Notes under the pieces: model-generated | Seen by the model: the letters and a program-made list of their open reading frames with translations, nothing else | Told to the model about the DNA's origin: nothing | The model's database searches: none | From: Clostridia bacterium | Lineage (GTDB): Bacteria; Bacillota; Clostridia; Oscillospirales; Acutalibacteraceae | DNA: 64,000 nucleotides | Direction of reading: 5' to 3' | NCBI GenBank assembly: GCA_017517865.1 | Contig: JAFWYB010000003.1 | Coordinates: 1-64,000, forward strand | Translations under genes and position numbers: made by a program | Shown: positions 455 through 31,100 of the stretch, piece by piece | Position numbering within the stretch: the stretch's first letter is position 1 | Layout of the letters: the number at the start of each line of letters is the position of its first letter

Positions 455-479
455 AAAAAAGCACCGATTTAATCGGTGC
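455..479 (-). terminator. Intrinsic terminator of the integrase gene
   Basis: A perfect 8-bp hairpin (461-468 with 472-479) is followed on the minus strand by six T (455-460). It overlaps the integrase stop codon at 469-471. Confidence 0.8.
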
Positions 480-2418: not shown

Positions 2419-3054
2419 TTAAAACTTAGCTCTGAGCTCTACAACCTTACCGATTACCTGAACGGGAAGGGAATCAACCTCATCCTTTGAAAAATAGAAA
2501 GGCTCAAATGAGGGATTTGTTGAAATCAGAGTAACACCGTTATCGTTCATATAGAACTTCTTAACCGTTGCGTCGTTGCCGTTAACCAGGACAACTGCAA
2601 GCTCTCCATTTTCAACAATATTCTGCTTGCGTACGATTACTACGTCACCCTCGGTAATTCTCGGTTCCATGCTGTTGCCTTTGATTGAAAGAGCAAAGTA
2701 GTCTCCCTGAGCTGCCATATCCTGAGAGATTTCTTCGTAGTCGAGTATTTCTTCAACTGCCTCAATAGGAATACCGGCACGAACATAGCCGAGAACGGGG
2801 ACGGATACAGCCTTCTTGGAAGAATGCAATGCATCACTTTCATTGAACCCCATAAGCCATTCAGGACGTACGTCAAGAGCGTTGCCTATTATTTTTAGTC
2901 TGTCTATAGGTATATTTGAAACAAAACCTGTTTCATATCTTTGCAAAGTGGATTTACTGAAGCCTGTTGCATCTGAAAGAGTGCCGTAAGACCACTGCTT
3001 TTTCTCACGAGCAATTCGCAAACGTTCAGCTGTGATTTTGTTTTTGCTTTCCAT
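2419..3054 (-). CDS. CI/LexA-like prophage repressor (HTH plus S24 peptidase)
   Basis: A 211-residue repressor that should hold the lytic promoter off and be inactivated by RecA-stimulated self-cleavage. Residues 7-65 form an XRE-type HTH (recognition helix in FSKSTLQRYE). The C-terminal half is a LexA/UmuD peptidase: predicted cleavage between A93 and G94 (YVRAGIP), Ser128 in KGNSMEP as nucleophile and Lys165 in ATVKKF as general base. The start at 3054 was chosen because GGAGGTG lies just upstream; a longer open frame reaching 3261 runs back over the operator region and is not credible. It has its own promoter at 3077-3105 and faces the Cro-like gene at 3211. Confidence 0.95.
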   Translation of the reverse strand: MESKNKITAERLRIAREKKQWSYGTLSDATGFSKSTLQRYETGFVSNIPIDRLKIIGNALDVRPEWLMGFNESDALHSSKKAVSVPVLGYVRAGIPIEAVEEILDYEEISQDMAAQGDYFALSIKGNSMEPRITEGDVVIVRKQNIVENGELAVVLVNGNDATVKKFYMNDNGVTLISTNPSFEPFYFSKDEVDSLPVQVIGKVVELRAKF

Positions 3055-3076
3055 ATTAACACCTCCGTGTGGCTTG

Positions 3077-3105
3077 ATTATACAACATAAGTTCAATAAA
3101 TGCAA
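3077..3105 (-). promoter_or_regulatory. Repressor promoter (PRM-like)
   Basis: On the minus strand TTGCAT (complement of 3100-3105) and a perfect TATAAT (complement of 3077-3082) are separated by 17 bp, about 22 bp upstream of the repressor start codon. Confidence 0.7.
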
Positions 3106-3132
3106 CGATTTTTTCAAAAAAATACAAAAAAA

Positions 3133-3148
3133 GTTCCAAAAGTGGGTT
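3133..3148. promoter_or_regulatory. Repressor operator O1
   Basis: GTTCCAAAAGTGGGTT is an imperfect version of the palindrome GTTCCA-N4-TGGAAC found at 3403-3418. It overlaps the first bases of the -35 element of the rightward promoter (3147-3152), so a bound repressor would block RNA polymerase. Confidence 0.7.
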
Positions 3149-3175
3149 GACAAACTAAAAAAGCCGTGATAATAT
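3147..3175 (+). promoter_or_regulatory. Early lytic promoter (PR-like)
   Basis: Consensus TTGACA (3147-3152) and TAATAT (3170-3175) are separated by exactly 17 bp, reading toward the Cro-like gene. The promoter is flanked by two operator copies (3133-3148 and 3182-3197). Confidence 0.85.
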
Positions 3176-3181
3176 AAAGCC

Positions 3182-3197
3182 GTACCACAAGTGGAAC
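3182..3197. promoter_or_regulatory. Repressor operator O2
   Basis: GTACCACAAGTGGAAC matches the same half-sites (GTNCCA...TGGAAC, 4-bp centre) and covers the expected transcription start of the rightward promoter, just before the GGAGG of the Cro-like gene. Confidence 0.75.
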
Positions 3198-3210
3198 GGA
3201 GGTGAAAGAG

Positions 3211-3399
3211 ATGGCAGCACAGGAAATTAAAGTGGCATTGGCAAAGAAAAATATGACTCAACAGGACTTAGCAAAGCTTCTTAATATATCAACTAATAGC
3301 TTATCAAAGAAAATGAACGGCAAGGTTAGCTTTAAGCTTTCCGAAGCTCAGGCTATAATTGAACATTTAGAGGTGGAGCCGTCTATTTTTTTTGCTTAA
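3211..3399 (+). CDS. Cro-like XRE family regulator
   Basis: A 62-residue protein consisting of a single XRE helix-turn-helix (KKNMTQQDLAKLLNISTNSL, then SKKMNGK). This is the typical size of a phage Cro/antirepressor-type regulator opposing CI. The ATG at 3211 was chosen over a GTG at 3202 because GGAGG lies at 3198-3202 with normal spacing. It is the first gene of the rightward early transcript, with an operator just upstream and another (3403-3418) immediately after its stop codon, so it probably binds the same sites as the repressor and limits both promoters. DNA binding is inferred from the fold. Confidence 0.88.
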   Translation: MAAQEIKVALAKKNMTQQDLAKLLNISTNSLSKKMNGKVSFKLSEAQAIIEHLEVEPSIFFA

Positions 3400-4292: not shown

Positions 4293-4688
4293 ATGGAAAC
4301 ACCATGTAAGTATTGCGGTCAGGTTTATCTGAGCGACAAGGAAACCGAAAAGGAAAGGCTCGAGGATGCAATCAGACAGTGTGACTGTCCCCGCGCTTAT
4401 TCTCATAAGAAGAGAAAGCAGAAGATTTCCGCTGCGGAAATTGAGTTGACTAACGTCTTTGAGTTTAACCCCTTCAACGGTACTCTCGAAAGCGGCGCCT
4501 TTACCGATACGGTAAAGGAAATCCGTCAGGTTATGGAAAGCTTCATACCCCTGATAGTTGATTTCAACGTGCGTTCTCTTACGGTAGCTATTCCCACAGT
4601 AGGTAAAGTAACGATGTGCAGCACGTCTTCAGGTGACATCAAGGTCAGCAAGAAGTGCTCTGCAGGCATCGAAAGAAAAGTTGAGTAA
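4293..4688 (+). CDS. Hypothetical early phage protein with N-terminal Cys motif
   Basis: A 131-residue protein, not recognised. It begins with a CKYCG pair and a later CDC (residues 5-31), which could bind one metal ion, then a basic linker (KKRKQKIS) and a C-terminal domain of predicted alternating strands (about 50-125) without catalytic motifs. GGAGGTG lies just upstream of the ATG. It sits in the tightly packed early operon between a Cys-rich protein and a tiny membrane-like ORF. Confidence 0.7.
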   Translation: METPCKYCGQVYLSDKETEKERLEDAIRQCDCPRAYSHKKRKQKISAAEIELTNVFEFNPFNGTLESGAFTDTVKEIRQVMESFIPLIVDFNVRSLTVAIPTVGKVTMCSTSSGDIKVSKKCSAGIERKVE

Positions 4689-4701
4689 GGAGGTATAAAT
4701 A

Positions 4702-4842
4702 ATGTTTCCCGACATCGACAGCTTCAATATGTTTTTCTTCCCTACGCTGGCACTTATAGTTGCGGCAATGTGGAAGGAAGAGGACATCATAAAATTTATA
4801 AACAGAAAGAGAGGTAAAAACAATGGCATTAAACATAATTAA
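4702..4842 (+). CDS. Tiny hydrophobic early protein (46 residues)
   Basis: A 46-residue ORF with AAGGAGG 7 bp upstream of the ATG. Residues 9-23 are hydrophobic (NMFFFPTLALIVAAM) and are followed by charged residues and a basic tail, so it may be a single-pass membrane peptide. Its 3' end overlaps the start of the next gene by 20 bp, which suggests translational coupling. Function unknown. Confidence 0.6.
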   Translation: MFPDIDSFNMFFFPTLALIVAAMWKEEDIIKFINRKRGKNNGIKHN

Positions 4843-5146
4843 AGAGCTTAAGCTGCGCAAAACACGTAATAAGGTTCTTGAGGCACAGCTTGAGGAGTGC
4901 AAAAAAGAACTCGATGAAAAGAAAAAGCACCTGCATAGAGCGGTGCGAAGAATGAGTTACCTTGAGGATGAGCTTCATAAGGCTCACGAAGAAAACCTTA
5001 CGCTCAAAGGTGAGCTTAAACGGCAGGAGAGGGTTATGGATTTTGTTTTGAAACAGAATACTGATGTTATTTTAGCTTCAGCAAAGCCGGTTCCTCTGCC
5101 GACAATAAGAGTAATGGAGGTGAGAACAGATAAAAGTGCTCCTTGA
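4823..5146 (+). CDS. Coiled-coil early phage protein
   Basis: A 107-residue protein whose residues 5-80 form a long charged coiled coil (heptad pattern of Leu with E/K/R, for example LEAQLEECKKELDEKKKHL). The C-terminal 25 residues are hydrophobic and Pro-containing. No known family. It overlaps the preceding tiny ORF and is the last gene before a 152-bp intergenic region with inverted repeats. Confidence 0.65.
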   Translation: MALNIIKELKLRKTRNKVLEAQLEECKKELDEKKKHLHRAVRRMSYLEDELHKAHEENLTLKGELKRQERVMDFVLKQNTDVILASAKPVPLPTIRVMEVRTDKSAP

Positions 5147-5167
5147 GTATTCAGGTATAAAAAAAGA

Positions 5168-5274
5168 CTTACAGAAGCGGCACCCTCTGTAAGCCACGCC
5201 CAAAGGCGGTAAGTAGCATTCAACTACATAAATAGTATATCACAAAAATGAAAGAATGTCAAACTTACCGCCTT
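5168..5274. promoter_or_regulatory. Intergenic inverted repeats upstream of the rep gene
   Basis: CTTACAGA (5168-5175) pairs with TCTGTAAG (5186-5193), and AAGGCGGTAAG (5203-5213) pairs exactly with CTTACCGCCTT (5264-5274) across 50 bp. Lying directly before the HUH-type Rep gene, the second pair could be an operator or a replication origin hairpin; either is inference. No clear promoter could be assigned. Confidence 0.5.
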
Positions 5275-5298
5275 CAGTAACAGAAAGGCAGATTTAAA

Positions 5299-6060
5299 GT
5301 GAAAATAAGAGTCAAAACAAGGACTTTTTCCGGTGCTGTGTGTGAGCAGGAGGTGTATTACATCTCCGATAAGGTTAAGAGCAGGAAGGATGCAAAGCCC
5401 CGTCTGCGTTTTAAATCAGAAGAGGAGAGAGAAGCCCATAAGCTCGGCATATCAAAAAGAAATCACGCAAGGCTTGTGAATGAAAACTTTTCTCCAACGT
5501 CTGTTTACAGTACGCTGACCTTCGATAACGTAAACGAGGTGCACACCTTCTCCGAAGCGAAGTACATCAGAGATCTCTTTATGCGCCGCCTTAAATATGC
5601 CTACCCTGATGCGGTAATCTTTTTTTATCTCGGCAGAGGTAAGGCGACAAAGAGAATTCACGGTCATATGATTTCCGAGGGCGTACCTGCAGAGGTCATA
5701 GTCAAGCAGTGGAGCTACGGTGAGATTGTTTCCATAGATAACCTTCGGGCGCATAACTACTATAACGGAGTTGACCACGGTCAGGACTATACGGGCCTTG
5801 CAAATTATCTCTTTGAGCATTGGACTCCTGAGCAGGGCGGTCACCGATGGAAAATGACAAGGAATGCCCGACGTCCCGAGCGTGAAGAGCCGAAGGAGAT
5901 AAAAAGAGCCTACTCAGAGGATAAGCCTCCCACACCGCCGAAGGGCTATAAAATGGTTGAAAGCAGGGGTACAAAGTACGGATATATGTACTTTAAGTAC
6001 GTGCTTGACATTGAGCCCGAGAAGAAAAAAGTTAAGAAAAATACAACCGATACGAGCTGA
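5299..6060 (+). CDS. HUH-type replication-associated protein (Rep)
   Basis: A 253-residue protein resembling rolling-circle replication proteins of the ORF2/G2P-like HUH class. Motif 1-like STLTFDN is at 71-77, the metal-binding HUH motif appears as His121-Gly-His123 (KRIHGHMI), and a candidate catalytic tyrosine is Y170 in LANYLFEHW, the usual position of the tyrosine helix. The C-terminal 60 residues are basic and probably disordered. Nicking would make a 5'-phosphotyrosine link at an origin, perhaps in the inverted repeats just upstream. No helicase or polymerase gene is seen in the prophage, so the host replisome would be needed. HUH Rep genes are better known from ssDNA phages and plasmids, which makes this notable in a dsDNA prophage. 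Confidence 0.65.
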   Translation: MKIRVKTRTFSGAVCEQEVYYISDKVKSRKDAKPRLRFKSEEEREAHKLGISKRNHARLVNENFSPTSVYSTLTFDNVNEVHTFSEAKYIRDLFMRRLKYAYPDAVIFFYLGRGKATKRIHGHMISEGVPAEVIVKQWSYGEIVSIDNLRAHNYYNGVDHGQDYTGLANYLFEHWTPEQGGHRWKMTRNARRPEREEPKEIKRAYSEDKPPTPPKGYKMVESRGTKYGYMYFKYVLDIEPEKKKVKKNTTDTS

Positions 6061-8297: not shown

Positions 8298-8304
8298 TAG
8301 ATTG

Positions 8305-9474
8305 ATGGAGAGCGTCTATGAGCGTATGGAACGAGAAAATTCCAAGTGGAAAGCGGCAATGTTCCGTGTAAAGCAACAACTACCTTATGAAATCAAAAAA
8401 ATGTATGCAGCAAGAAGAGCACTGCAATTTCAAAGAGAATGCGGACTTAGAGATTTAAATTACCATGTTTCTGTTGGAGGTCTCGACAGTATTACTTTGT
8501 ATCTTTTTTTACTTAGCATAGGCATTGAAGATGTAAAAGCCGTAAGTGTTTCAAGCTTGGAAAATAAGACTATCAGAAAAGTACATAAAGCTTTGCATAT
8601 TGAAGCACTTAAGCCTTCAATGCGTGAAGACGGTACACGGTGGACTAAAGCCAAGATATTACAGGAATTCGGTTTTCCTGTTCTGTCAAAGGAAATAGCA
8701 GCTAAGATTGAACTTTTACAGAATCCTTCGGAAAAGAATAAAACTGTTCGTCACGCTATTATTACCGGGGAAACAGGGGAGTACGGTGGTTTTCAGACAA
8801 GCTCAAGAATGAAACTTTCGCAAATATGGCTTGAGAAATTCGGAGGGTATGAGAACGAAAATGAAGGAGTGAATTATTCAAAACCTGACTTCCTTGTTTC
8901 GTCAAAGTGCTGTTATTACCTGAAAGAGAAGCCTTGTGATGATTGGGCGAAAGAGCACAACAGTGTACCATATCTCGGACTTATGGCTTCTGAGGGTGGT
9001 CGAAGAGCGAAAGGCCTTATGTTACACGGTTGTAATTACTTTGGGTCCTCAACTATCCGCTCGGCACCTTTTGCAATATTTGACAGACAAGATATTCTGA
9101 GACTTGCTCTTGAAATGGATAAATGGTATCAGGAACATTGGAAAAAATTCGGATTTGATTACGTTGAATCGGTTATTCCCAAGGTTTACGGAGAAATAGC
9201 AAAAGACAGTAAAGGAAGATTATACACAACAAAGGCACAACGGACCGGCTGTGAAATATGCGGCTTCGGTGTGCATATGGAAAAAAGGCCACACAGATTT
9301 GACCTGCTAAGAGAACAAAATCCTAAAGCTTGGCAGTATTGGATGTTTGACTGTTGCACCGACAGTGACGGCAACAAATACGGTTGGGGCAAGGTTCTTT
9401 ATTATATCGGTGTTCCTTATGAATGGGACGGCGCTTGCATGGTTAATGAAGTTGGTCAGTTAAGTTTATTTTAA
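8305..9474 (+). CDS. PAPS reductase-like PP-loop protein (IbrA/DndC-like)
   Basis: A 389-residue protein of the phage phosphoadenosine-phosphosulfate-reductase-like family (N-type ATP pyrophosphatases). The PP-loop is VSVGGLDSITLYLFL at about residues 52-66; the usual SGGKDS has become GGLDS. A Cys-rich C-terminal region (GCEICGFGVHMEKRPHRF, then CC) is typical of this family and may hold an iron-sulfur cluster or zinc. The ATG at 8305 has AAGGAG 7 bp upstream. Relatives include DndC (DNA phosphorothioation) and IbrA, which pairs with a ParB-like IbrB; a ParB-like gene follows here. Its substrate is unknown. It is bracketed by a partial duplication, so it looks like inserted cargo. Confidence 0.8.
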   Translation: MESVYERMERENSKWKAAMFRVKQQLPYEIKKMYAARRALQFQRECGLRDLNYHVSVGGLDSITLYLFLLSIGIEDVKAVSVSSLENKTIRKVHKALHIEALKPSMREDGTRWTKAKILQEFGFPVLSKEIAAKIELLQNPSEKNKTVRHAIITGETGEYGGFQTSSRMKLSQIWLEKFGGYENENEGVNYSKPDFLVSSKCCYYLKEKPCDDWAKEHNSVPYLGLMASEGGRRAKGLMLHGCNYFGSSTIRSAPFAIFDRQDILRLALEMDKWYQEHWKKFGFDYVESVIPKVYGEIAKDSKGRLYTTKAQRTGCEICGFGVHMEKRPHRFDLLREQNPKAWQYWMFDCCTDSDGNKYGWGKVLYYIGVPYEWDGACMVNEVGQLSLF

Positions 9475-12977: not shown

Positions 12978-13526
12978 ATGGGCGAATCCAAGAAAAAAGC
13001 GAACGCAAAAGGTAAAAAGCAGAGAAAAATACCGTGGCAAACGCTTGAAAATGAATATATTTCTTCCCGGGTGAGCTATAAAGAGCTGTCTGAAAAGCAC
13101 AAAATACCGAAAAGACAGATAGAAAGGTACGCTTCAGAGCATCAGTGGGTTGCAAAACGGCGTGAAATTGTCGGCGAAGTGTCGGCAAACGTAAAAAAGG
13201 CTATTATCAATGATGAAACCAATAAGCAGCTTGATTATCTTTCTGAAATTGGTGAAGCGGCAAAGAAGATAATCGAGGTTGTCACAAAGGCGGTTGAAGA
13301 CGATAAGCAGTTTTTCAGAAGAAGCTTCTATTCCGAGCAGGAGAAGAAGGTTGTTGAGTACGAAACCGAGAAGATTGACGGTGCGGCTGTTAACCAGGTG
13401 CTCAAGGCTCTTGAGAAGGTTACAGACATATACTGCTCTGCTTACGGTATCGAGAGAGAGGAGAACACCAAGAAGTACGAAATCAATGTAAATATGCCTG
13501 AAGGAGCGAAGGAATATGGCGAGTAA
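12978..13526 (+). CDS. terS: Terminase small subunit
   Basis: A 182-residue protein directly before the large terminase, overlapping it by 11 bp. The N-terminus is basic, followed by an HTH (VSYKELSEKHKIPKRQIERY) that would recognise the packaging site, then a helical oligomerisation region and a C-terminus ending near EYGE. The size and layout are those of TerS proteins that bind phage DNA and stimulate the TerL ATPase. GGGGGGAGG lies upstream of the ATG at 12978. The family assignment rests on position plus HTH, since TerS sequences are poorly conserved. Confidence 0.85.
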   Translation: MGESKKKANAKGKKQRKIPWQTLENEYISSRVSYKELSEKHKIPKRQIERYASEHQWVAKRREIVGEVSANVKKAIINDETNKQLDYLSEIGEAAKKIIEVVTKAVEDDKQFFRRSFYSEQEKKVVEYETEKIDGAAVNQVLKALEKVTDIYCSAYGIEREENTKKYEINVNMPEGAKEYGE

Positions 13527-14880
13527 GACTACCATTAACCTTGACCTTTCAAAGACAAATCCGAAGCAGGACAGATTTCTAAGAGCTAAAAAGAAGCACG
13601 TCGGCTTCGGCGGAGCCAGAGGCGGCGGCAAAAGCTGGGTTGTCAGGATAAAGGCAATTCTGTTGTGCCTGTTTTTTGCGGGTATAAAGGTACTCATTGT
13701 AAGAAGAACATACCCCGAGCTTAAGAAAAACCACATAAATGAGATAAGGAAGCTCACTACGGGTATTGCAAGATACAACGATAAGGACAAGGAGCTGACC
13801 TTTGTAAACGGATCCACGATAACCTTTACTTATTGTGCGAAAGACAAGGACCTTGATATGCTGCTGGGTGCTGAATTTGACGTGATATTCCTTGAAGAAG
13901 CGGGGTTGCTGTCTGAGTTTCAGATGAAGAGCATTGTTGCCTGCCTTCGAGGAGCAAACGAATTCCCAAAGAGAGTTTACTATACAATGAACCCGGGTGG
14001 CCAGGGGCATGCTTATCTGAAGCGGATTTTTATTGACCGTAAATACGATATAGGTGAGAACCCTGATGAGTACGAATTCATACAGAGCCTTGTTACAGAT
14101 AACATTGCACTGTTGGAAAAACAGCCCGACTATAAGAAACAGTTGGAGGCACTGCCGCCGAAGCTTCGTAAGGCGTGGCTTGAGGGTGACTGGAATGTGT
14201 TTGAGGGTATGTTTTTTGAGGAATTCAGGGACGATCCCGAGCATTATCTTGACAGAAGATATACTCACGTAATCGAGCCTTTTAATCCGTCAGGGATGAA
14301 CATATACAGAAGCTATGACTTCGGCTATAATAAGCCCTTCTCATGCGGATGGTGGGCGGTGGATGCTCAAGGTGTAATCTACCGTATTCTTGAATACTAC
14401 GGATGTACGGGTGAGCCTAACGAGGGCGTTAAAATGACACCCGATGAGCAGTTTGCCGCAATAGCAAAAATCGAAAGAGAACACCCTTATCTCAGAGATA
14501 AGAAAATACAGGGCGTGGCAGACCCTTCAATATGGGACGGCAGCAGAGGAATATCCGTTGCCGAGACTGCCGCAAAGTACGGAATATACTTTTCACCGGG
14601 TATAAATGAGCGCATAAGCGGCTGGATGCAATGCCATTACAGACTGAAATTTGATAAAAACGGTTACCCGATGATGTACGTATTCAATACCTGCAAGGAT
14701 TTCATAAGAACTATTCCCTTGCTGATGTATTCCGAAACTAAGGTTGAAGATATTGATACTGACCTTGAGGACCACATCGCTGACGAGTGGCGGTACTTCT
14801 GTATGACAAGACCGCTCAAACCCGTGATTCCCGAGGAGATAGCGGATACAAGATTTGACCCGCTCAACAGAAAGAAATAA
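13516..14880 (+). CDS. terL: Terminase large subunit
   Basis: A 454-residue packaging motor. The ATPase domain has a Walker A-like GGARGGGKS at about residues 32-40, a Walker B FDVIFLEE at about 121-128 and a coupling motif in YYTMNPGG. The C-terminal RNase H-like nuclease has acidic residues in YRSYDFGYN, VADPSIWDG and DHIADEWRYF. It would cut concatemers and pump DNA through the portal encoded next. Length is normal for TerL of the terminase_6 type. Confidence 0.97.
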   Translation: MASKTTINLDLSKTNPKQDRFLRAKKKHVGFGGARGGGKSWVVRIKAILLCLFFAGIKVLIVRRTYPELKKNHINEIRKLTTGIARYNDKDKELTFVNGSTITFTYCAKDKDLDMLLGAEFDVIFLEEAGLLSEFQMKSIVACLRGANEFPKRVYYTMNPGGQGHAYLKRIFIDRKYDIGENPDEYEFIQSLVTDNIALLEKQPDYKKQLEALPPKLRKAWLEGDWNVFEGMFFEEFRDDPEHYLDRRYTHVIEPFNPSGMNIYRSYDFGYNKPFSCGWWAVDAQGVIYRILEYYGCTGEPNEGVKMTPDEQFAAIAKIEREHPYLRDKKIQGVADPSIWDGSRGISVAETAAKYGIYFSPGINERISGWMQCHYRLKFDKNGYPMMYVFNTCKDFIRTIPLLMYSETKVEDIDTDLEDHIADEWRYFCMTRPLKPVIPEEIADTRFDPLNRKK

Positions 14881-14893
14881 CAGGAGGTTTATT

Positions 14894-16846
14894 ATGCTTA
14901 ACACAGAAAATAAAGCAAATACTGAAGCTGAAGCGGCTCTGCCTATCGGTAAGGCGGAGATACGTGCAGCTATGCAAAGGTACAAAAAGTACAAGGATTC
15001 GAAAAAGGCACTCGATGACAGACTTAAGAATAACGAAAAATTCTGGCGTATGCGCCATTGGGATGGTGTGACCTCGGGCGGAAAGGTAAACCCTACAGGG
15101 TGGCTTCTTAATGCGGTGCACTCCAAACATGCTGATATGATGGACGGATATCCCGAGCCTTCCTTCAGAGCTAAGGAGCAGAGTGACGTAAGAGAGGCAA
15201 AGATGCTTTCTGAAATTGTACCTGTTGTGCTTGAAGCGGCAGGCTTTAAAACGGTATATGATAAGGTGTGCCGTGACAAAATCAACAAGGGTACGGGCGT
15301 TTACGGTATATACTGGGATTCATCCAAAAACTTCGGCAAGGGTGATATTTCCGTTGAAAAAGTAAACCTTCTCAACCTTTACTTCGAGCCCGGTATTGAA
15401 AACATCCAGGATTCCAAGGAGGTATTTCTTCTTGCTGAGATGAACATTGATGAGGTGAAGTCGCTTTATCCTGAAGCGAAAAATATTCCGTCTTCTTCTG
15501 CTGACAGTATAGAGAGATACGACAGTGATGAAAGCATAGACAGAAGCGATAAGTGCATAGTTTATGATTGGTACTACAAAAAGTGGCAGAACGGCAAGTC
15601 TGTACTGCATTACTGTAAATTTGTAGGGGAAAATGTACTTTATGCGTCCGAAAACGATACCAAAAGACCGCAGGTTCAGATGCTTGACCCGATGACGAGT
15701 GAGGGCATTTTCGATGAAAGAGGAATGCCTGTTATGCAGGATATTGACCTTAGTATTGCGGAAAAGGGCTGGTACGAGCACGGTCAGTATCCCTTTGTAT
15801 TTGACGTTATGTTTCCTGTGGAAGCTTCGCCTTGCGGTCTCGGATATACAGACCTTTTCAAGGGTTCTCAGGAGGATATTGACGAGCTTAAGCACGCCAT
15901 TAAAAACAATGCACTTATATGCTCAAATCCCAAGTTCTTCTATTCAAAGTCGGGAGGTCTCAACCTTGACGATTATGCAGACCCGAAAAAGACCTTTATT
16001 CCCATTGAGGGAAATCTCGATTGTATTATGCAGGTACAGCCTCCGCAGATTCCGAGTATCACTCTTGAGGTAATGATGCAGAGCATAGAGGAGCTCAAGG
16101 AGGTTACCGGCAACAGAGACGTGAACAACGGCTCTACATCTTCGGGTGTAACGGCGGCTTCAGCTATTGCGGCACTTCAGGAGCACGCAGGCAAGCTCTC
16201 AAGGCATTCAATACAGAACAGCTACGAAACGGATAAGTCCGTTTATTATCAGGTTGTTGAGCTCATAAGACAGTTTTACGGCACTGAAAGACAGTTCAGA
16301 ATAACCGGTGAAAAGGGCGAGGATAAATACGTTTCATACTCAAACGTCAATATCAGACCTCAGAGTCTCGGCAACGATTTCGGTGTTGAATCGGGAGAAC
16401 GTCTGCCTCAGTTTGATATCATTGTCACTGCGGCAAAGGCTACCTCATACTCAAAGCTCAGTCAGAATGAGTTTGCGCTTCAGCTTTACGGTGCAGGTGT
16501 TTTCAATCCTGAAAACGCTGATGTTGTTCTGCCTATGCTTCAGATGATGGATTTTGACGATAAGGATAAGGTTATTCAGTCTGTTGAGAAAAATGCAACG
16601 CTTCTGAAAATGAATAAGTATCTTGCTCAGATTGCTCTCGGCATTGCAAGTAAGCACGATCCGAAGGCAGCAGCTCAGCTTATGGCTATGCTTCAGGGCC
16701 AGCAGGCAGGTATGCAGATGCAGAATCCCGCTCAGGTACAGACAGAAATTACGCCCGTTAACAGTGACGGTACTCTTGATAACGGTGAGCACAGCGTTGT
16801 GGAAAAGGCAAGAGAGCGTTCACAGAACAGTACCCAGCCCACATAA
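14894..16846 (+). CDS. Portal protein
   Basis: A 650-residue protein directly after TerL. The long portal type with N-terminal helices (AMQRYKKYKDSKKALDDRLK), a central strand-rich part, a hinge helix (VTAASAIAALQEHAGKLSRH at about residue 430) and a Gln/Met-rich C-terminus (LMAMLQGQQAGMQMQNPAQ) fit podovirus or P22-like portals, which are longer than HK97-type ones. AGGAGG precedes the ATG at 14894; an upstream in-frame start at 14855 lies inside TerL and is rejected. It forms the DNA entry vertex. Confidence 0.9.
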   Translation: MLNTENKANTEAEAALPIGKAEIRAAMQRYKKYKDSKKALDDRLKNNEKFWRMRHWDGVTSGGKVNPTGWLLNAVHSKHADMMDGYPEPSFRAKEQSDVREAKMLSEIVPVVLEAAGFKTVYDKVCRDKINKGTGVYGIYWDSSKNFGKGDISVEKVNLLNLYFEPGIENIQDSKEVFLLAEMNIDEVKSLYPEAKNIPSSSADSIERYDSDESIDRSDKCIVYDWYYKKWQNGKSVLHYCKFVGENVLYASENDTKRPQVQMLDPMTSEGIFDERGMPVMQDIDLSIAEKGWYEHGQYPFVFDVMFPVEASPCGLGYTDLFKGSQEDIDELKHAIKNNALICSNPKFFYSKSGGLNLDDYADPKKTFIPIEGNLDCIMQVQPPQIPSITLEVMMQSIEELKEVTGNRDVNNGSTSSGVTAASAIAALQEHAGKLSRHSIQNSYETDKSVYYQVVELIRQFYGTERQFRITGEKGEDKYVSYSNVNIRPQSLGNDFGVESGERLPQFDIIVTAAKATSYSKLSQNEFALQLYGAGVFNPENADVVLPMLQMMDFDDKDKVIQSVEKNATLLKMNKYLAQIALGIASKHDPKAAAQLMAMLQGQQAGMQMQNPAQVQTEITPVNSDGTLDNGEHSVVEKARERSQNSTQPT

Positions 16847-16857
16847 GGAGGTTTATT

Positions 16858-17187
16858 ATGATACATATTACAGTTTCGCCTAAAAAGCTTCAACTTCGTA
16901 TAAAAGGTCATGCGGATTATGCTGAGCCCGGAAAGGATATTATCTGTGCATCCGTAAGCTATGCCTTTTATAATCTCTGCCAGGTAATGACAGACTATAC
17001 CGACCTCGGACTTCTTTGCAAGGCTCCGAAGATGAAGGACTGCTCAGGCAACAGCTTTATTGAAGTGATCCCGAAAAAGGAGTACGAAAAGAACGTGCAG
17101 ATAGTATTCTCAGTTATTGCAAGAGGGCTTGAGGTGCTCGCAAGTAATTATCCCGAGTTTGTGGATTTCAGGCTTCTTGAGTATTAA
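16858..17187 (+). CDS. Prp-like cysteine protease (head maturation)
   Basis: A 109-residue homologue of ribosomal-processing cysteine protease Prp. The hallmark IKGHADYAEPGKDIICASVS (residues 15-34) supplies His18 and Cys30, spaced as in the His/Cys dyad of Staphylococcus aureus Prp, which removes the N-terminus of ribosomal protein L27. Here it sits between portal and scaffold genes. The scaffold (17287) and the capsid protein (18221) both begin with an L27-like motif ending LQLF, so this protease probably trims both during head assembly. It ends just before the second copy of the shared terminator. Confidence 0.9.
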   Translation: MIHITVSPKKLQLRIKGHADYAEPGKDIICASVSYAFYNLCQVMTDYTDLGLLCKAPKMKDCSGNSFIEVIPKKEYEKNVQIVFSVIARGLEVLASNYPEFVDFRLLEY

Positions 17188-17200
17188 AGAGCATCAAAAA

Positions 17201-17233
17201 AGAGTGGGGAGAAAATCCTCACTCTTTTATTTT
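17201..17233 (+). terminator. Intrinsic terminator, copy 2 of 3
   Basis: Same AGAGTGGGGA / GAAAA / TCCTCACTCT stem-loop as at 12916, followed by TTTATTTTAT. It separates TerS-TerL-portal-Prp from the scaffold and capsid genes, and with a weak T-tract may allow read-through. Confidence 0.8.
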
Positions 17234-17286
17234 ATAATTGAATCAGACACCTCGGAGAGACGAGAGATTTTTTCAGGAGGTTACTT

Positions 17287-18177
17287 ATGAGAGTAACAAA
17301 ACATCTGCATTTTGACCTGCAGTTATTCTCTGAAGGCGGCACCGCATCGGGCGGTACGTCGGCAAGCGGAGGCGCGGGCGGTGCATCGGGCGCTTCATCA
17401 CAGGTCGCCGCTGTGAATACGGGTGATAATTCTCAGAGCCCCGCTGAGGACAGAGCAGCACTGTATCAGAAGTTCAGAACCGATTATAAGGCTGAATTTG
17501 ATGCCGAAGTACAAGGTATAGTCAAAGACAGACTTAAAAAGGCAAGAGAGAATGAAAATGCTGCAAAGCAGTACCGTGAGAAAGCAGGACAGATACTTGC
17601 TATGGTATCGGATAAATACGGCGTTGACCCTGAAGACCTTGACACTCTTCTCGGAAAGGTTACAGAGGATAACGACTATTACGAAAATCTTGCTCTTAAG
17701 AACGGTACAACTCCCGAGCGTGAAAGACAGCTCAAACAAACAGAAAGGGAGAACGCTCAACTTAAGGCAAGGGACGAAGCTCAGAGAAAAAGAGCTGAGT
17801 ACGAAGACTGGGTGGCATCAATGAAGCAGCAGGAGCAGGAGCTCAAGGGTATTTATCCTGACTTTGATTTCATTCGTGAGAGCGAGGAAAACGAGCTTTT
17901 CCAGAAGCTTGTCAGAAACGGCGTAAGTATGAAGAATGCTTATGAGGTTGCTCATCACGATGAGATAATGGCTCAGGGTATGCAGTTTGCGGCAAAGCAG
18001 GCGGCAGCAAAAACTCAGGCTTCTATCAATGCTAACAGTCAGAGACCGAAGGAAAACGGTCTTAATTCATCCTCAACTGCCGATAAGAAGGTTGATATCA
18101 AAAATATGTCACTCAAAGAGCTGCAGGCTTACGGAGATCTTGCACGCCTGGGCAAGAGAATCACCTTCAAGGATTGA
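17287..18177 (+). CDS. Scaffolding protein with Prp-type N-terminal motif
   Basis: A 296-residue scaffold: a Gly/Ser/Ala-rich linker (about 16-48), then a long charged helical region (60-260, including KARENENAAKQYREKAGQIL) and a basic C-terminus (KNMSLKELQAYGDLARLGKR) that would contact the capsid protein. Residues 8-14, HFDLQLF, followed by SEGG, match the LQFF-type cut site of Prp in ribosomal protein L27, predicting cleavage after F14 by the protease encoded just upstream. It directly precedes the major capsid gene, the usual scaffold position. Confidence 0.88.
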   Translation: MRVTKHLHFDLQLFSEGGTASGGTSASGGAGGASGASSQVAAVNTGDNSQSPAEDRAALYQKFRTDYKAEFDAEVQGIVKDRLKKARENENAAKQYREKAGQILAMVSDKYGVDPEDLDTLLGKVTEDNDYYENLALKNGTTPERERQLKQTERENAQLKARDEAQRKRAEYEDWVASMKQQEQELKGIYPDFDFIRESEENELFQKLVRNGVSMKNAYEVAHHDEIMAQGMQFAAKQAAAKTQASINANSQRPKENGLNSSSTADKKVDIKNMSLKELQAYGDLARLGKRITFKD

Positions 18178-18220
18178 GCAGAGGTTTCTCCCGCAAAATA
18201 TCAATAAGGAGAACGACAAA

Positions 18221-19231
18221 ATGAAAAAGTATCTTAAATTCAATCTTCAGCTTTTTGCTGATCCCAATCCCAATGTACAGACAACCGGCTCTGCAGATCT
18301 TACTCCTGAGATGAAGGAGTATTACAATACTCTTCTTCTTAAGCTTATGCAGGCAAATCTTGTGCATACACAGTTTGGTAAAAAGGATTCAATCCCCAAA
18401 AACGGCGGTAAGACAATCCTTTACAGAATGTATTCAGCATTCCCTGCTGTTACCGAAGCTCTTGAGGAAGGTATTACTCCGGATGGTGTTCCTCTCAAGG
18501 TAACCGAAATCAGCAAGACACTTGAGGAGTTCGGTGCATATACAACCCTCTCTGATGTGCTTATTCTTACTGCAATTGATAACAACATCAAGGAAGCAAC
18601 TGAGAAGCACGCTGACAGTGCGGTTCTTACTCTTGACAGAATCGCCCGTAATGAGCTTAATGCCGGCACTAATGTTGTATACGCCGCAAAAGACGGTGTA
18701 AGAGCAACCTCAAGAAGTCAGCTTACCGCCGAGCACCAGCTCACCTATACCGATGTTGCATATATGTCAACAATGCTCAAGAGAAACAATGCGCCTACCA
18801 TTGACGGTAGCTATATTGCTATTGTTCATCCCGACGTGGCTCAGGATATTATGCTTGATGAGCGCTGGATTGACGTTCAGAAATATAAGAACCCCGAAAA
18901 TGTATATAATGGTGAAATCGGTAAGCTTCACAACGTAAGATTCATTGATTCTACTGAAGCTCTGTGTGTTAAAGAAGGTGCAGAAGGTTGCGGTGTTTAT
19001 TCAACTCTTTTTCTCGGCCGTGATGGTTACCATGTTATTGACGTCGGCGGCGCAGGTGTTGAAATCATCGTAAAACCTGCAGGCTCTTCGGGTACCGCTG
19101 ACCCCCTCAATCAGAGAAGTACCGTTGGTTGGAAGGTTCCTATGTTCGGTGTAAAGAGAACTATCGAACAGTATATCTGGAGATTTGAGTCCGGTTCAAG
19201 TCTTTCAAATATGGCTATTGCTAATAATTAA
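18221..19231 (+). CDS. Major capsid protein, N4-gp56 family
   Basis: A 336-residue capsid protein. The sequence from LTPEMKEYYNTLLLKLMQAN through KGGKT-type strands (KNGGKTILYRMYSAF) and EGITPDGVPLKVTEISKTLE resembles the N4-gp56 capsid family, a variant of the HK97 fold. The N-terminus MKKYLKFNLQLFADPNPN carries the same Prp-type motif as the scaffold, predicting removal of 12 residues. AAGGAG precedes the ATG at 18221; an open extension to 17987 overlaps the scaffold and is rejected. It builds the head shell. Confidence 0.93.
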   Translation: MKKYLKFNLQLFADPNPNVQTTGSADLTPEMKEYYNTLLLKLMQANLVHTQFGKKDSIPKNGGKTILYRMYSAFPAVTEALEEGITPDGVPLKVTEISKTLEEFGAYTTLSDVLILTAIDNNIKEATEKHADSAVLTLDRIARNELNAGTNVVYAAKDGVRATSRSQLTAEHQLTYTDVAYMSTMLKRNNAPTIDGSYIAIVHPDVAQDIMLDERWIDVQKYKNPENVYNGEIGKLHNVRFIDSTEALCVKEGAEGCGVYSTLFLGRDGYHVIDVGGAGVEIIVKPAGSSGTADPLNQRSTVGWKVPMFGVKRTIEQYIWRFESGSSLSNMAIANN

Positions 19232-24090: not shown

Positions 24091-25105
24091 AATGTCGTCT
24101 TCTTCCGCGTGGAAAAACTATCAGAGCATTCTTAAGACAAAGCCCGGTGATTTCAAGTATTCCGCGAAAAAGCCCGCATGGAGCTATGATGATTCTAAGC
24201 TCAATGCCTATTATGATATGCTTCTTAATCGAAAAGATTTTACCTTTGATCTGGATAAGAATGCCTTATACGGTCAGTATAAGGATTTTTATACAAAACA
24301 GGGTCAGCTTGCCATGATGGATACCGCGGGTCAGGCAGCTGCTTTGACGGGTGGTTACGGCAACAGTTATGCAACTGCTGCGGGACAACAGGCGTATCAG
24401 CAGAATCTTGACCAGCTCGGAGAAATGGTTCCCGAAATTTACGGACTTGCGCTTCAGCAGTATCAGATGGAAGGTGAACAGCTTTATAACAAATATGCTC
24501 TTGCTGCCGGAGAAAGAGATGTTGCATACAATCAGTATCTCGATAACCTTAACAGATATTACAGAGATTACGATGCTGCTTACCAGAAGCATAGTGACAG
24601 TGTCGACCGTTGGTATAACGATGCAAATATGGCATACGGTATGTACGGTGATGCACGTGATTATGAATATCAGCAGGAGAGGGCAGCCGTTCAGGATAGC
24701 CAGTGGGCTAAGGAATTTGCAGAGAGTCAGAGGCAGTCGGATAGAGAACACAGTCTCAGGATGAAACAGCTTGAAGCAGACCGAGAAGCCTTTGAAAGGG
24801 ATTATGAAATGTGGGAAAAAGAATTTAATGCTAAATACGGCGGCACAGGAAACGAACCTGTGGTTGAAGAATCTAAGCCTGAAGACCAGGGTTCAAATAA
24901 ATCGGAGCTTACACAAGCTGAGAGGTTAGCGGCTTTAGGTATGAGCGAAAAGGAAGAGCAGGTTGTTATGGATATAATCGAAGAAATTCAAAATAAAGGT
25001 ATGGTCGGTGATACAGAACGCTTGAGTAACTTTATAAGCGAATACGGAAAGGATCTTACTCTTTCACAGCTTAAGGCTCTCAGAATTATATTTTTAGGTG
25101 AGTGA
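24080..25105 (+). CDS. Internal virion/ejection protein candidate (Gln/Tyr-rich helical)
   Basis: A 341-residue protein dominated by Gln, Tyr, Ala and charged helices. The middle has GGYGNSYATAAGQQAYQQNL followed by long heptad-like helices (120-250), a pattern of podovirus internal or ejection proteins encoded next to very large virion proteins. The C-terminal 70 residues form a separate helical domain after a Pro/Glu linker. It lies between the spike and the giant protein gene. The ejection role is inferred from neighbourhood and composition. Confidence 0.6.
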   Translation: MASKMSSSSAWKNYQSILKTKPGDFKYSAKKPAWSYDDSKLNAYYDMLLNRKDFTFDLDKNALYGQYKDFYTKQGQLAMMDTAGQAAALTGGYGNSYATAAGQQAYQQNLDQLGEMVPEIYGLALQQYQMEGEQLYNKYALAAGERDVAYNQYLDNLNRYYRDYDAAYQKHSDSVDRWYNDANMAYGMYGDARDYEYQQERAAVQDSQWAKEFAESQRQSDREHSLRMKQLEADREAFERDYEMWEKEFNAKYGGTGNEPVVEESKPEDQGSNKSELTQAERLAALGMSEKEEQVVMDIIEEIQNKGMVGDTERLSNFISEYGKDLTLSQLKALRIIFLGE

Positions 25106-25119
25106 GACGGAGGTTTAAA

Positions 25120-28100
25120 ATGAAACGTAAATCTTTATTTGAAGATGAAAATTCCAGCTATCAGAAATTTGTCAAATCCGGAGCTAAGAAGAAAAGTTCA
25201 GAGTCTTTATTTGAGGATGAAAACTCAAGCTACAGCCACTATGTTATCGGTGAAAAGCTTAAGGAAGCAGAAAGAAGTGCACGAATAAGAGCTGAGGCTG
25301 TCGATAAAGATTTTTTAAATTCTGAAGCGTATGCTGATGTAAACAGCAGTAGTTATAATCAGGCATTTAAGGAATACAGAGAAGTAAAAGCTGCCCTTGA
25401 TGATTATAATAGCTATATCGAAAACAGAAGAATAAGCAAAATGTCTTTGGGTGAGCTTGATGCCGTTATCGCTGACTACGATGAAAAGATAGCTTCCCAT
25501 AAAAATTACGTAAAATGGGATAAGGGTTGGTTGCCCGGTGGTTTAAGTCCGGATGAAGCGTCATATCATAAGGATGAGATGAATAAACTTGAAAACGAAT
25601 CGGCAAAATACAGAACAAGAAGAGACTACGTTAAAGCGCAGGAAGTGACAGGATCACTTCCTGCCGATGTCGTTGAATTGCTTGATAAGTATAACAACAT
25701 TTTATATTCTCAGCAGGGAACCGATTTTTCACAGATAGCATCTGCTTTTATGGGTGCAGGCGGTGAAGGTGGCGGAAACAGGGTACAGTATTCATCAAAC
25801 GAAAATATAAAAAACCATATTGCTAAAGAACTCGCCGAAAGAGGATATGAGAACTTTTCAGAGCTTGCAGAATACAGAAAATATATAACTGATGTCGAAT
25901 TTACCGATGAATATACACAGCGGTGGGAAGATTTTACGAAGGAGCATCCTGTTGCTTCTTCGGTTTTAAACCTTGCGATGGCTCCGGCAAGAATGGTAAC
26001 AAGCTCGGTAGGAGCTCTTGACGGTATCGGTAATCAGTCAGATCTTGGATTTAATCCTTATAACCCTTACTATGCTCTTACTCACGCCAACAACGCGAAG
26101 CAGAGCGTTATAATTGACTCCTTCGACGAGGGGATTATTTCAAAAGATGCGAAAACATTCCTTTACAATACTGCGGAAAGTGCAGTGGAGAGCATTCTTT
26201 CGAGTGTTGCATTCGGAGGAGGCGGAGGAGCCGTGCTCGGTCTTGGTGCCTTTGGTGATACTGTTCTCGGCACGGTTGAAAAGGGCGGCAACTATGAGGA
26301 TGCGCTTTTTTCAGGTATTCTTGCCGGTACATTTGAGGGGTTATTTGAAACAGTTTCTATAGGCCAGCTGAAAGCCTTTAAGGATATTCCCGTAAACAGT
26401 TTAAAGGACGTGCTTCGTAATATAGGCAGTGGTGTGCTTGTAAACGCATCTGAAGAAACTCTTACCGAATTAGCCAACGTTATGAGTGATTATATGATTA
26501 ACGGTGGTGTATCAGATTACTACAATGCTGTTGTTGCATATATGGATGACGGTATGGGCGAAGCAGAGGCGAAACGAAAAGCGGCAGGAGACATAGGCTC
26601 AAGAATCTTTGAAGCGGGTGTCAGCGGTGGACTTATGGGTGCAGGCTTCGGTGCAGGCGGAAGTGCAGTAAGCTACGGAAAGAGCCTGTATAACAGATAT
26701 GAGTCGGGTAAGGGCACAGTAGAAGGCGGTCAGCTCGGTACTCTTGTTGACGGCGCAGCAGACGTGCAGGGTGATGATAAATATAAGAGCCTTTATGAAA
26801 GTGTTGTAAAAAGTCAGCAGGCGGCAGAGAAGGATGCTGATTATGATTACTCTATGAAGGAGTACTATAAGGTCGGTAAGCTCTCAGAACGTCTTGCTGA
26901 GACAACGGAATCAGAGAGAAATAGCATAGTCAGAAGTGCCGTTTCTGACAGATTCAAAAGCCTTGGTGAAACGGGTGACATCAACATTCTTTCTTCTGCG
27001 GTTACTAAGACGGTATTCGGGGAGAAGCTTACACACAAGGAAAAAGCAGCTCTCAAAGACAGTAAACATGCACAGCAGGTTATCAATGAGGCGGGCGACG
27101 TTTACGGAGAGTACTCATCGGCGTGGGTTGACAAAACAAAGGCTGATGTTGATGCTCTTTATGAGAGAAGATACTCTCCCGAAACAGCAGCATTGTCAGA
27201 AAGTACCGAAACAAAGAAGTACTCCGATGAAAACTACGTTAACCGTGTAAAAGAAACGGTTATTGAAAAAGGGCAGAACAAGGATGCGTTTGATAAGCAA
27301 TTCGACCTCTTTCTGAGCTACGGCCGTCAGGGCGTTGATTTTGATACTGTCAAGGACACTGTTCCCGAGAGTGCGGGTGTAAGTGAACGTCAGCTGAAGG
27401 CGGCTTATGACCTCGGCGCCGAGCTCGATGCACAGTCAAAGCTTGACGTTGTTACCGGTATTTCATCAGTAAAGGGCGGAGAGGTTTACGTTACCACAAC
27501 TGCAGGCAATACAAGGAAGCTTTCCGAACTTAATGTGGAAGCGGCAACGGGACAGCTTGTAAGGAGTGCTTCGAAGTATGACAAAGATACTGCGAATGCT
27601 TTTATTCGTGGATACAACAGAAGTGCAACTGTTTCAAGCTATGCCAGAGCCTTTGATGCATTCTACAGTGCAGGTGTATCAAGCTCAGATGCGAAGTATT
27701 CTGACGTACTCGAAAAGAACAAGTCTCTTATCAAATATATGGATAACGCCGATGTCGCAAGGAAAGCCTTTGATATGGGCAGAGCCGAGAGAACAAAGGC
27801 TGACAAAGCGATTAAACAGAAAAAGCAGACAGGTGCACATCCTGCAAAGGGTACATATCAGAGCAAGACTGTTTCTGTTGGTGAAGAGGCTGTTGATGAA
27901 TTTTACAGTGCCCTTGCAAAAAAGACGGGCATTGACATTGACAGAGTGCATAATATATTAAACAACAAAAAACAGGTTGCAAATGCGCAGTATGACCCGA
28001 CAAAGCACAAAATGACGGTTTCTGCTTCGGCACAGAATGAATTGCAGGCTTCGGTGCATGAGCTCACTCACGCTGCCTTTGCCTACAACACCGAAAAGAT

Positions 28101-31100
28101 GAAGCCTGTTAAAAAGGCTGTTATTGATTATTTCCTTTCACAGAATTCCGAATCAGAGTTTGAAGAGATCCTTCGTCAGTACGGTGCAAGCTATGAGGGT
28201 GACAGCAGAGCCGATATCGAAGAAGAGTTCGTTGCTGATGCACTCGGTGGTATGTTCACAACTGAAGAGGGTGTGCAGGACTTCCTCAACTGGCTTCAGG
28301 AGGAAAGCGGATATAAGGCAGAAGAAAAGAAAACCATTCTGCAGAGAATTACAGAATGGCTGAATGACATTATTGAAGCTATCAGAGATATAATGAATTC
28401 GGGTGAGCTCAACGGTGCAGGCAAGTTCTTTGCAAAGGAAAATTGCGACGAGCTTGTAAGAATCAGAAAGCAGTTTCTTGAAGCTCTTGACGGCGCAGGG
28501 GTGAATTACCGTGAAGGCGGTGCTGTTGAGGGGAATGTGAAATTTTCGAACAAACGTTTGACAAATGGTACTGAAACAGCGTATAATAATGACAACGAAT
28601 ATCTCACAATGGCAAACAGAGCAAAGCCGAATGCACGGTCAAGCATAAACTGGGTGTATCAGCAAGAGCTTTTTTCTTTCAAGGAGAACAAATTGTTCTT
28701 TGAAAAGATAAGTGAGATAAATCAAGGTTCAGGGGCGTTCATTCAAAACCTTGACGGTGAATATATGTTGCCGATTGGTAACAAAATTGTTTTTACCAAC
28801 GGTGACTATGATACACCATATATCAGCAAAGTCATTGAAGTAATGACAGAATATGACACAAGATTCGAAGAGGTCAGGAGGTTAGTATTCGATTATGAAA
28901 AAGGGTTACGATCCAACTTCGCCAATGAGACAAGAATTTTTAAAAACATGTATGGACATGGGTATATCTACGAGTACAATAGCGGATTTAACGGAGCCTA
29001 TGAAATGGGCGACGGAAAAAGAAAAAGAAAAAATCGCAAAAGTATTATTGAAAATTATTTCAAGAGCCAAAACAGAGGAAGAAATGCTGGAAATGGCAAC
29101 AAAGAGCTTCGGAGCGGAAGCGATGAAAAGAGAGTAAAGTTTTCCCTCCCACTCTCCAACCTCAATGATCTCCACCGCAGCACTATTGATAAGGTGACAG
29201 AGCTGGGCAAGGTCACTGCTCAGATGCAGGCTCACATACTGCGTATAGGCTCAAATCTCACAAAGAGAGAACTGTCTGCTCTTAAGATTCAGGAGATTGC
29301 AAGAAAACTGAAGGTTGACTATGCTTCAAAGCTTGATATTCACGATTTATCGGGCAGATTGACAGAACTTTATACTCTCATCAATGAGGGAGGAGCATCC
29401 TATGATGTGCTTCGTGCTCATCTTGACGATATAAAGGAAAGGCTTCTCAAGGAATCAAAGTATATGAAGCCTGATATAAGTGAAGCGGCAAAGGAACGTC
29501 TGAGAGAAATCAGAAAAACTCCCGTGAGCATCAACGAAACACAGCTGGCAGAGATCCTCAGTATGTACGGCAATATGACTAACTTCAGAAGGTACACCGG
29601 CTTACAGATAACCAAGGACGGTACACCTCTTGAAATGCGTTGGTCTGAATGGGCTGATATGTCGGGTATGTTTGATCCTGAGATTTCCGATGCGGATATG
29701 CCCATAAGACTTGCCGAGATTGTTGATTCTCTCAAGAATACATACGAGGATGAAAGCGGATACGACCTTGATTCTGCGAGAGACCAGCTCGATGCGGATA
29801 TATGCGCCGCATATCTTGAGATACCGACTGTGTCGGAGCTGGGTAACCGTTTCTTTGAGATAGAGCAGGAGCTTCTTACGGAGCTTAAGGAGCAGAGAGA
29901 TCTTTATACAAGTACCTTCAACAAAACCTATGCTCTTGCAAGGAAAGCGGCAAAGAATGACTTTGACCGTCAGCTCGTGAATGCAAAGGCAAGAATGGAG
30001 CAGAGAGTACAGAACATAGCCGATACGAGACTTCGTGAGAAGAAGCGTAACCGACTGATTAAAACCGTCAAGAGGCTTGACCGACTTCTCCGTAATCCCG
30101 GCAAGGGTGCACCGAGTGCCGGTGTGAATAAGTACGACCAGGAGTATGTGCATCTGACAAATATTCCCGAAGAAATGAAAAGAACGGTTATCGACTTCTG
30201 CAGTGTGTTTATTGACAATGATGCAGGTGTGTTCACCGGAAAATATACTGACAGTGAAAACGTTGTCAGAAAGAAAATAAATGAGCTCAGAAAACAGTAT
30301 CAGAACCTCAAGCAGAGTGAGTCTTATATCGGTACTTCCGTCAGTGATGAAATGACAGCAAAGCTCGAAAAGCTTCATGACATTGTTGCTGACAAGAGGC
30401 TGGCACAGCTCACTGCTGCCGAGCTCGATATGGTGAATGAAATTGCCGACCACCTTATGGCGGTAATTAATAATGAAGTCAAGATGTGGGTTAACGGTAA
30501 GCAGACAAAGGTTGCTGACATAGGAAAGTCTGCACTCAATGAGCTGGCAGGCAAGGGAATGAAGGGATATATTCAGGCGATGAAGGGTATCGATAAGCTC
30601 AGTGTTATGAACCTGAAGCCGATATATTTCTTTGAAAAGGTTGGCGGTATTCTCGAAATGCTCTGGAAGGATATTCTCGGCGGTCAGGATAAATATGTTC
30701 GTAATATGCAGTTTGCTCAGCAGAGGTTCAGCGATATTGCAAAGAAGTATCATCTTGACAGATGGACGGATGATAAGGCAGAAACCTTCACCACGGCACA
30801 GGGACACGAAATCAGCCTTACAAGAGGACAGGCTCTTCTCATTTGGGCAACCTGGAAGAGAGAAGGCAAGGCAGGCAAGGACAGTAAGCACCTTTTTGAG
30901 GGCGGTATTGTTTATCCCGATACGGTAAAGAAGGCATCTGAAAAAGGTAAGAAGGGACTTCCTGAGGTGCTGCAGAAGGTTTATGAGGACGGTACTGCTC
31001 ACCGCATCCGTGTGGAGGACATGCTCAAAATTGATGAATGGCTTACAGATGAGCAGAAAAAGTATGCCGACGAGTTGGTGTCTTTCCTTTCAACAGACAT

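Follow-up and report, generated by a model that had tools for sequence, protein, structure and literature searches.

A prophage of a Clostridia bacterium encodes its own Prp-family cysteine protease, which very probably cuts the N-terminal leaders of the phage scaffold and capsid proteins during head assembly. The genes, the conserved dyad, the leaders, the synteny and the coevolution of enzyme and leaders were observed in sequence, and on this basis a phage-owned processing protease of the L27 type, changing in step with the structural leaders, appears to be what is new here. The window, meaning the whole stretch of 64,000 nucleotides that was analysed, sits inside a prophage and carries an integrase, a repressor, replication genes and ParB-like genes. 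The features concerned are as follows:

469-1611, minus strand: integrase
2419-3258, minus strand: repressor
13516..14880, plus strand: large terminase, start of the head module (phrog_2, PF03237)
14855..16846, plus strand: P22-type portal (PF16510, 121 bits)
16858..17187, plus strand: phage-encoded Prp cysteine protease, 109 aa, dyad His18/Cys30, Asp27 (PF04327)
17287..18177, plus strand: putative scaffold protein, predicted substrate 1, 296 aa (phrog_13908, 180 bits)
17287..17328, plus strand: leader MRVTKHLHFDLQLF of the scaffold, with Ser15 as the first residue after the predicted cut; second of 219 ORFs by leader PSSM
18221..19231, plus strand: N4-gp56-type major capsid protein, predicted substrate 2, 336 aa (TIGR04387, 236.7 bits; phrog_1357, 246 bits)
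18221..18256, plus strand: leader MKKYLKFNLQLF of the capsid, with Ala13 as the first residue after the predicted cut; first of 219 ORFs by leader PSSM

The Prp ORF lies directly downstream of the portal ORF, which ends at 16846, and the scaffold ORF begins 99 nt after Prp. The protein matched PF04327 with 62.1 bits (Pfam profile, curated cut-off 27) and phrog_4478, annotated "peptidase", and its AlphaFold model had a pLDDT of 90.4 and a pTM of 0.82. In the alignment with S. aureus Prp (4peo), which is gap-free here, G17, H18, G25, D27, C30 and S34 correspond to G21, H22, G29, D31, C34 and S38. The dyad His and Cys are exact, and the equivalents of Gly21, Asp31 and Ser38, described as needed in the S. 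aureus enzyme (PMC9405229), are present as well. The window Prp shares with the host Prp (MEROPS C108)/L27 system of S. aureus the family, the dyad, the Asp/Gly/Ser active-site residues and, as predicted for the phage, a substrate of the LQxF/A type (PMC9405229; the slash marks the cut), but it lies in a phage head operon and its predicted substrates are scaffold and capsid. It fell below the cut-off of the ribosomal-processing equivalog (NCBIfam PRK14553 models; best 35.3 bits, cut-off 171), as did the chromosomal host Prp (56.5 versus 135); only the host copy is located between L21 and L27. Elsewhere in the window, a PAPS-reductase-like gene was seen in the early region of the prophage (8302-9474), and a 2849-aa ORF without an NCBIfam match lies downstream of the head module (25102-33651).

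The scaffold match phrog_13908 is annotated "unknown function", and we inferred the identity of this protein from its position between portal/Prp and capsid and from the original prediction. The capsid start was taken as the ATG at 18221; a longer TTG frame runs from 17987. The nearest named relative, among the best 80 of 355 GTDB matches, was a Clostridia assembly (L201) with a 93% identical capsid, and dN/dS against it was 0.054 for Prp, 0.039 for terminase, 0.086 for portal, 0.10 for capsid and 0.20 for scaffold.

Upstream of the predicted cuts, the scaffold has 14 residues (MRVTKHLHFDLQLF followed by SEGG; FDLQLF/SE) and the capsid 12 (MKKYLKFNLQLF followed by ADPN; FNLQLF/AD), the cut position being taken by analogy from L27 and phage 80alpha (PMC9405229, PMC5744158). 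Among the 219 window ORFs (both strands, 60 aa or longer), a leader PSSM whose training set included the window locus scored the capsid at 23.2, the scaffold at 19.1 and the next best ORF at 9.1. These results confirmed what had been proposed from the window alone: a Prp with a His18/Cys30 dyad between portal and scaffold (ORF 16858-17187, Pfam match and 4peo alignment), an N4-gp56-type capsid (TIGR04387), and L27-like leaders on scaffold and capsid, which were the top two.

The window genome carries a second Prp between L21 and L27, and its host L27 starts MLKINIQLF/AHKK. The phage Prp is 34% identical to the Prp of its own host over aligned columns. In the tree, phage Prps stood apart from host Prps, with 5 label changes versus about 114 after shuffling. 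Repeated capture of the host Prp was therefore dropped as an origin, since the phage copies cluster apart on about 100 alignment columns and a host sample drawn from the phylum of the window plus a small number of named genomes. P3 was Gln in all parsed long host L27 (44/44, 28/28 and 14/14, in sets that may share genomes), so that non-Gln phage leaders differ from the host substrates. Among the control genomes, E. coli gave no Prp match.

Relatives of the capsid were collected from genomes (15 of 150 and 9 of 398, with the window's own genome in both sets), viral contigs (best 80 at most per scan) and GTDB genomes (best 80 of 355). A capsid ORF was present in 399 of 400 loci, and 252 were left once capsids more than 90% identical had been removed. 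Prp was called at an HMM E-value up to 1e-4 on the same strand within 6 kb, which gave 169 loci with Prp, 56 without Prp over at least 3.5 kb upstream, and 27 too short to judge; these 27, with less than 3.5 kb upstream, and truncated scaffolds were left out before counting. The PSSM was cross-trained, so that the scaffold model scored capsids and the capsid model scored scaffolds, and it was frozen with a threshold at the 99th percentile of 1637 background ORFs before application to the 252 loci.

The order Prp, scaffold, capsid was found in 164 of the 168 loci with a scaffold, and the remaining 4 were fusions. A capsid leader was called in 145/169 Prp-carrying loci, a scaffold leader in 145/168, and at least one in 164/169; look-alikes were visible in the other 5. 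Outside the PSSM training set, the counts were 52/62 and 51/62. Loci without Prp (at least 3.5 kb upstream) had a capsid leader in 18/56 and a scaffold leader in 12/44 cases. The raw association was strong for the scaffold leader, which was called in 97/109 loci having Prp and in 6/37 lacking it (Fisher 4e-16). An early independent-pair test on the tree, which used starred branches only, gave 4.8 pairs in the same and 0.3 in the opposite direction for scaffold leader against Prp presence (median p 0.06, few pairs), and 1.5 versus 0.8 for the capsid leader (median p 1, one direction); for scaffold P3 against capsid P3 it gave 5.4 versus 0.5 (median p 0.125, few pairs). Because independent pairs on the tree are few, presence and absence are a weak, phylogeny-bound argument, and the covariation tests carry the weight. 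Single-sequence scans of viral_contigs yielded no match with Prp and one locus with the capsid, and there were only three, weak, matches among GenBank phages. Two Prps were present in 8 of 100 same-family genomes, the second copy standing beside an N4-gp56-type capsid in 7 of the 8.

Leaders in loci without Prp were considered as a counter-example. Among the 18 capsids concerned, 12 came from whole genomes searched for Prp, and 8 of these 12 genomes have a Prp behind a portal on another contig, so the objection was dropped; for L037, L226, L235 and L274 the Prp search did not show a portal-linked copy.

Scaffold and capsid leaders change in concert. When leaders were swapped between sisters in 67 branch-disjoint pairs, scaffold-capsid similarity became lower in 39 and higher in 6 (p 5e-7), although this test, the enlarged set and the use of all branch-disjoint pairs were chosen after the first independent-pair result had been seen. 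The control position P2' gave 11 versus 10; the swap test on an earlier, smaller set had given 28 versus 5. By position, the ratios were 29:4 at P6, 25:9 at P5, 4:0 at P4, 12:4 at P3, 15:2 at P2, 2:0 at P1 and 10:2 at P1', with weaker covariation at P3 alone (p 0.08) and P1' (p 0.04). Odd leaders often came in pairs on scaffold and capsid: LHTLMF/DG on both proteins of L150, P2 Ala in L155, L157 and L163, P2 Gln in L252, P2 Arg in L278 and L259, P1 His in L115, and P4 Phe in L107 and L178. Unpaired examples also occur, for instance in L176 and L220. Shared ancestry as the only cause was dropped, because the effect persists in branch-disjoint sister pairs. Leader exchange between the two genes as the sole cause was also dropped, since codons differ (the window leaders share F, L, Q, L and F, with 4 of 5 encoded by different codons) and D27 is left unexplained; some exchange may have occurred, because the frequency of same-codon matches is somewhat higher inside a locus (414/790) than in comparison with its nearest neighbour (317/698).

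The leaders also covary with the enzyme. After loci with either leader below 3 had been dropped, 159 of the 169 were kept, 158 with an aligned Cys. P3 Gln was present in 93/114 capsids and 86/114 scaffolds when Prp had D27, compared to 0/44 and 0/44 when it had not. In independent pairs the ratios were 11:0 for the capsid (p 0.001) and 8:0 for the scaffold (p 0.008). D27 was the top of 101 Prp columns for P3 Gln in both rankings, the next columns including Y21, A22, E23, G25, K26 and I28 of the same loop and I2, P57, V6 and I68 elsewhere. In the crystal of S. aureus Prp with a peptide, P3 Gln is hydrogen-bonded to Gly29 and Asp31 (PMC9405229), to which window G25 and D27 align, so that an independently observed contact predicts the pair linked in evolution. 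The 44 Prps without D27 had a loop gap in 37 cases and an acid one position closer to Cys in 19, and P1' was Asp or Glu in 39/44 of their scaffolds versus 25/114 with D27, and in 31/44 versus 20/114 capsids. As a separate observation, the Prps L306, L311, L313 (1479-1797) and L315, from the genomes of L208, L209, L229 and L205, have an unusual DLCC[CA] active-site stretch, and the capsid leader P3 there is Thr (L[DN]LT[LM]F/D).

Prp and scaffold were joined in one frame, with a predicted leader cut site at the joint, in 4 of 168 loci: L187 (a viral contig) and three Faecalibacterium loci with fusion ORF regions at 4550-5968 (L272), 5019-5972 (L273) and 4574-5926 (L277). The joints read FDLQLF/GD or V[ED]LQLF/A. 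Separate translation of the scaffold is possible in Faecalibacterium, because an in-frame ATG stands just upstream of the leader in all three joints; in L187 the closest in-frame start found upstream, a GTG, precedes the leader by 18 codons and falls within the Prp domain. The three Faecalibacterium genomes have a short L27 (MAHKKG) directly after L21, with Prp missing from L21-L27, and the five Prp copies that were found in them are all Prp-scaffold fusions, with two fusion elements each in the genomes of L272 and L277. In a fourth Faecalibacterium assembly (L279) Prp is unfused, and L27 was not found in a search of that assembly. The hosts of L219, L228 and L207 also have a short L27 and one Prp each, behind the portal and before the scaffold. 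Thus, in six short-L27 hosts, every Prp copy found (8/8) follows a phage-type portal and either precedes a scaffold or is fused to it, three of these genomes being metagenome assemblies in which a second Prp may be missed. Among 18 genomes with L27, 14 had the long form with P3 Gln, 3 the short form, and 1 (L258) was not parsed.

The three Faecalibacterium fusion ORFs probably sit in gene transfer agents. L272 is strain APC923/61-1, named as a carrier of FpGTA I (PMC12946183), and has a terminase, a portal, the Prp-scaffold fusion and a capsid of the window's family; from strain and gene content, we inferred that this locus is the FpGTA I operon. FpGTA is a gene transfer agent, whereas the window element is a phage, and in the main text of that paper neither "Prp" nor "protease" occurs (PMC12946183). 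Portal-Prp pairs apart from the scaffold and capsid contig were noted in the genomes of L205, L208, L209, L229, L264, L265, L268 and L270, clearly so for the long contigs (L264, L268, L229) and less so for the short ones (L209, L265). Such loci are L491 (7814-9903 and 18374-19804), L493 (8058-9800), L494 (6393-10146), L495 (2848-4967) and L618 (8801-10971), flanked by a class I tRNA synthetase in L491, by an NAD-dependent DNA ligase in L495, to which an ORF in L493 is 76% identical, and, by eye, by an enolase in L493. They look like dispersed, GTA-like gene sets, in agreement with a report of GTA activity in Ruminococcaceae and Oscillospiraceae (PMC12946183).

Taken as a whole, one tentative reading, which we hold as conceivable rather than probable, is a specificity switch of phage Prp: where the loop Asp is kept, P3 Gln would order the active-site loop, and where it is lost, so is P3 Gln, with Asp or Glu at most P1' positions, as though the acidic group had been handed over by the enzyme to its substrate. 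The module would then have passed to gut gene transfer agents, with a self-releasing Prp-scaffold polyprotein as the only Prp left in the cell.

A Prp-based scan (best 80 of 518, plus L496; 81 loci, 59 after deduplication) extended the Prp-leader system beyond the window phage and the N4-gp56 capsid, which the original prediction had not foreseen. None of the capsid and scaffold models of the window type matched these loci. In the usual layout, Prp is followed by leader proteins at about +380, +1000 and often +3600, and leaders were called in 122/660 same-strand versus 1/618 opposite-strand ORFs, in 51 of 59 loci. Among eight proteins scanned from three loci, PHROG matches were to a head scaffolding family (phrog_172), a major head family (phrog_544) and a major tail family (phrog_238). 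Tail proteins of this last family carry LQLF/AE leaders in the Prp-carrying phages L499 (9599-10129) and L576 (9676-10209), and Prp may trim tails as well as heads; an L27-like motif has been noted on the phi13 major tail protein (PMC5744158).

Alternatively, the leaders might be processed by the host's L27 enzyme, as happens in 80alpha, and the phage copy would be a spare or serve another purpose. The window leaders do resemble that of host L27 (INIQLF), the window genome has a host Prp, and P3 Gln leaders occur in 14 of the 18 leader-bearing capsids of loci without Prp. However, the leaders covary with D27 of the phage Prp, non-Gln leaders occur in hosts whose L27 has Gln, the Prps found in the six short-L27 hosts are all of phage type, and Prp-scaffold fusions exist, which makes this explanation improbable. 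It is very unlikely that the leaders are uncut docking tags and the phage Prp a binder or assembly chaperone. The 80alpha scaffold leader is indeed required and its cleavage is not, and neither scaffold nor capsid cleavage is needed for viability (PMC5744158), but both proteins are in fact cut (PMC5744158); the catalytic His and Cys of Prp were invariant where aligned (166/166 and 168/168), and Phe occupied P1 at 105/108 capsid sites and 106/108 scaffold sites of the model set, which the model itself had selected. That the phage Prp targets the host, for example by cutting L27 or other host proteins during takeover, is hardly credible: the family originated as an L27 protease (PMC9405229), but Prp stays in the head operon with its order kept in 164/168 loci, is retained in short-L27 hosts and coevolves with capsid leaders.

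The preferred reading is cleavage by the dedicated phage enzyme. The phage (prophage) would supply a Prp-family cysteine protease. During head assembly this enzyme would bind the leader (consensus [LIF][ND]LQLF) at the N-terminus of freshly synthesised scaffold and capsid and cut after the last Phe, removing 14 residues from the scaffold and 12 from the capsid. The phage rather than the host enzyme would do most of the cutting; host Prp may also act on the near-canonical leaders of the window, because they are close to the host L27 leader. In the weakest step, drawn by analogy with 80alpha, the leader would be a shared handle for scaffold folding or assembly that is later removed. The original prediction of a self-contained, L27-mimicking maturation system, for which a survey of Prp and leader co-occurrence had been named as a check, thus gained support from the gene order (164/168), the called leaders (164/169 Prp-carrying loci), the concerted leader change, the D27-P3 link and the six short-L27 hosts, although host Prp could also cut here.

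HK97 gp4 and T4 gp21 are classical phage-encoded prohead proteases of the serine, herpesvirus-like type; they are alike in serving head maturation, but are not Prp. A CR-clan protease of phage Cp-1 reportedly trims about 40 residues from its own capsid protein. As cited in PMC9405229, it is likewise a phage-encoded relative that trims a capsid N-terminus, but it is another enzyme of that clan with a longer extension and the L27-like motif is not mentioned there; it is the nearest precedent found. Phage 80alpha carries leaders of this type on its scaffold and its capsid (PMC5744158, PMC9405229), but lacks its own protease and is cut by host Prp, whereas the window phage has Prp in its head operon. 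In PMC5744158, 80alpha is presented as the first phage found to be processed by a host protease. In the literature covered, including the available parts of PMC9405229, PMC5744158, PMC6893505, PMC8569155 and PMC12946183, we found no phage-encoded Prp described as processing proteins of a phage, and the 2015 and 2017 Prp papers may contain a mention.

The occurrence of a phage-owned Prp with two lineages of capsid, as well as in what is probably a gene transfer agent of gut bacteria, suggests a general route of head, and perhaps tail, maturation. Across the loci, many enzymes are naturally paired with their predicted substrates, from which Prp specificity could be read, and this is relevant to Prp as a target for drugs. 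In hosts apparently without a ribosomal Prp, the capsid role could be studied alone.
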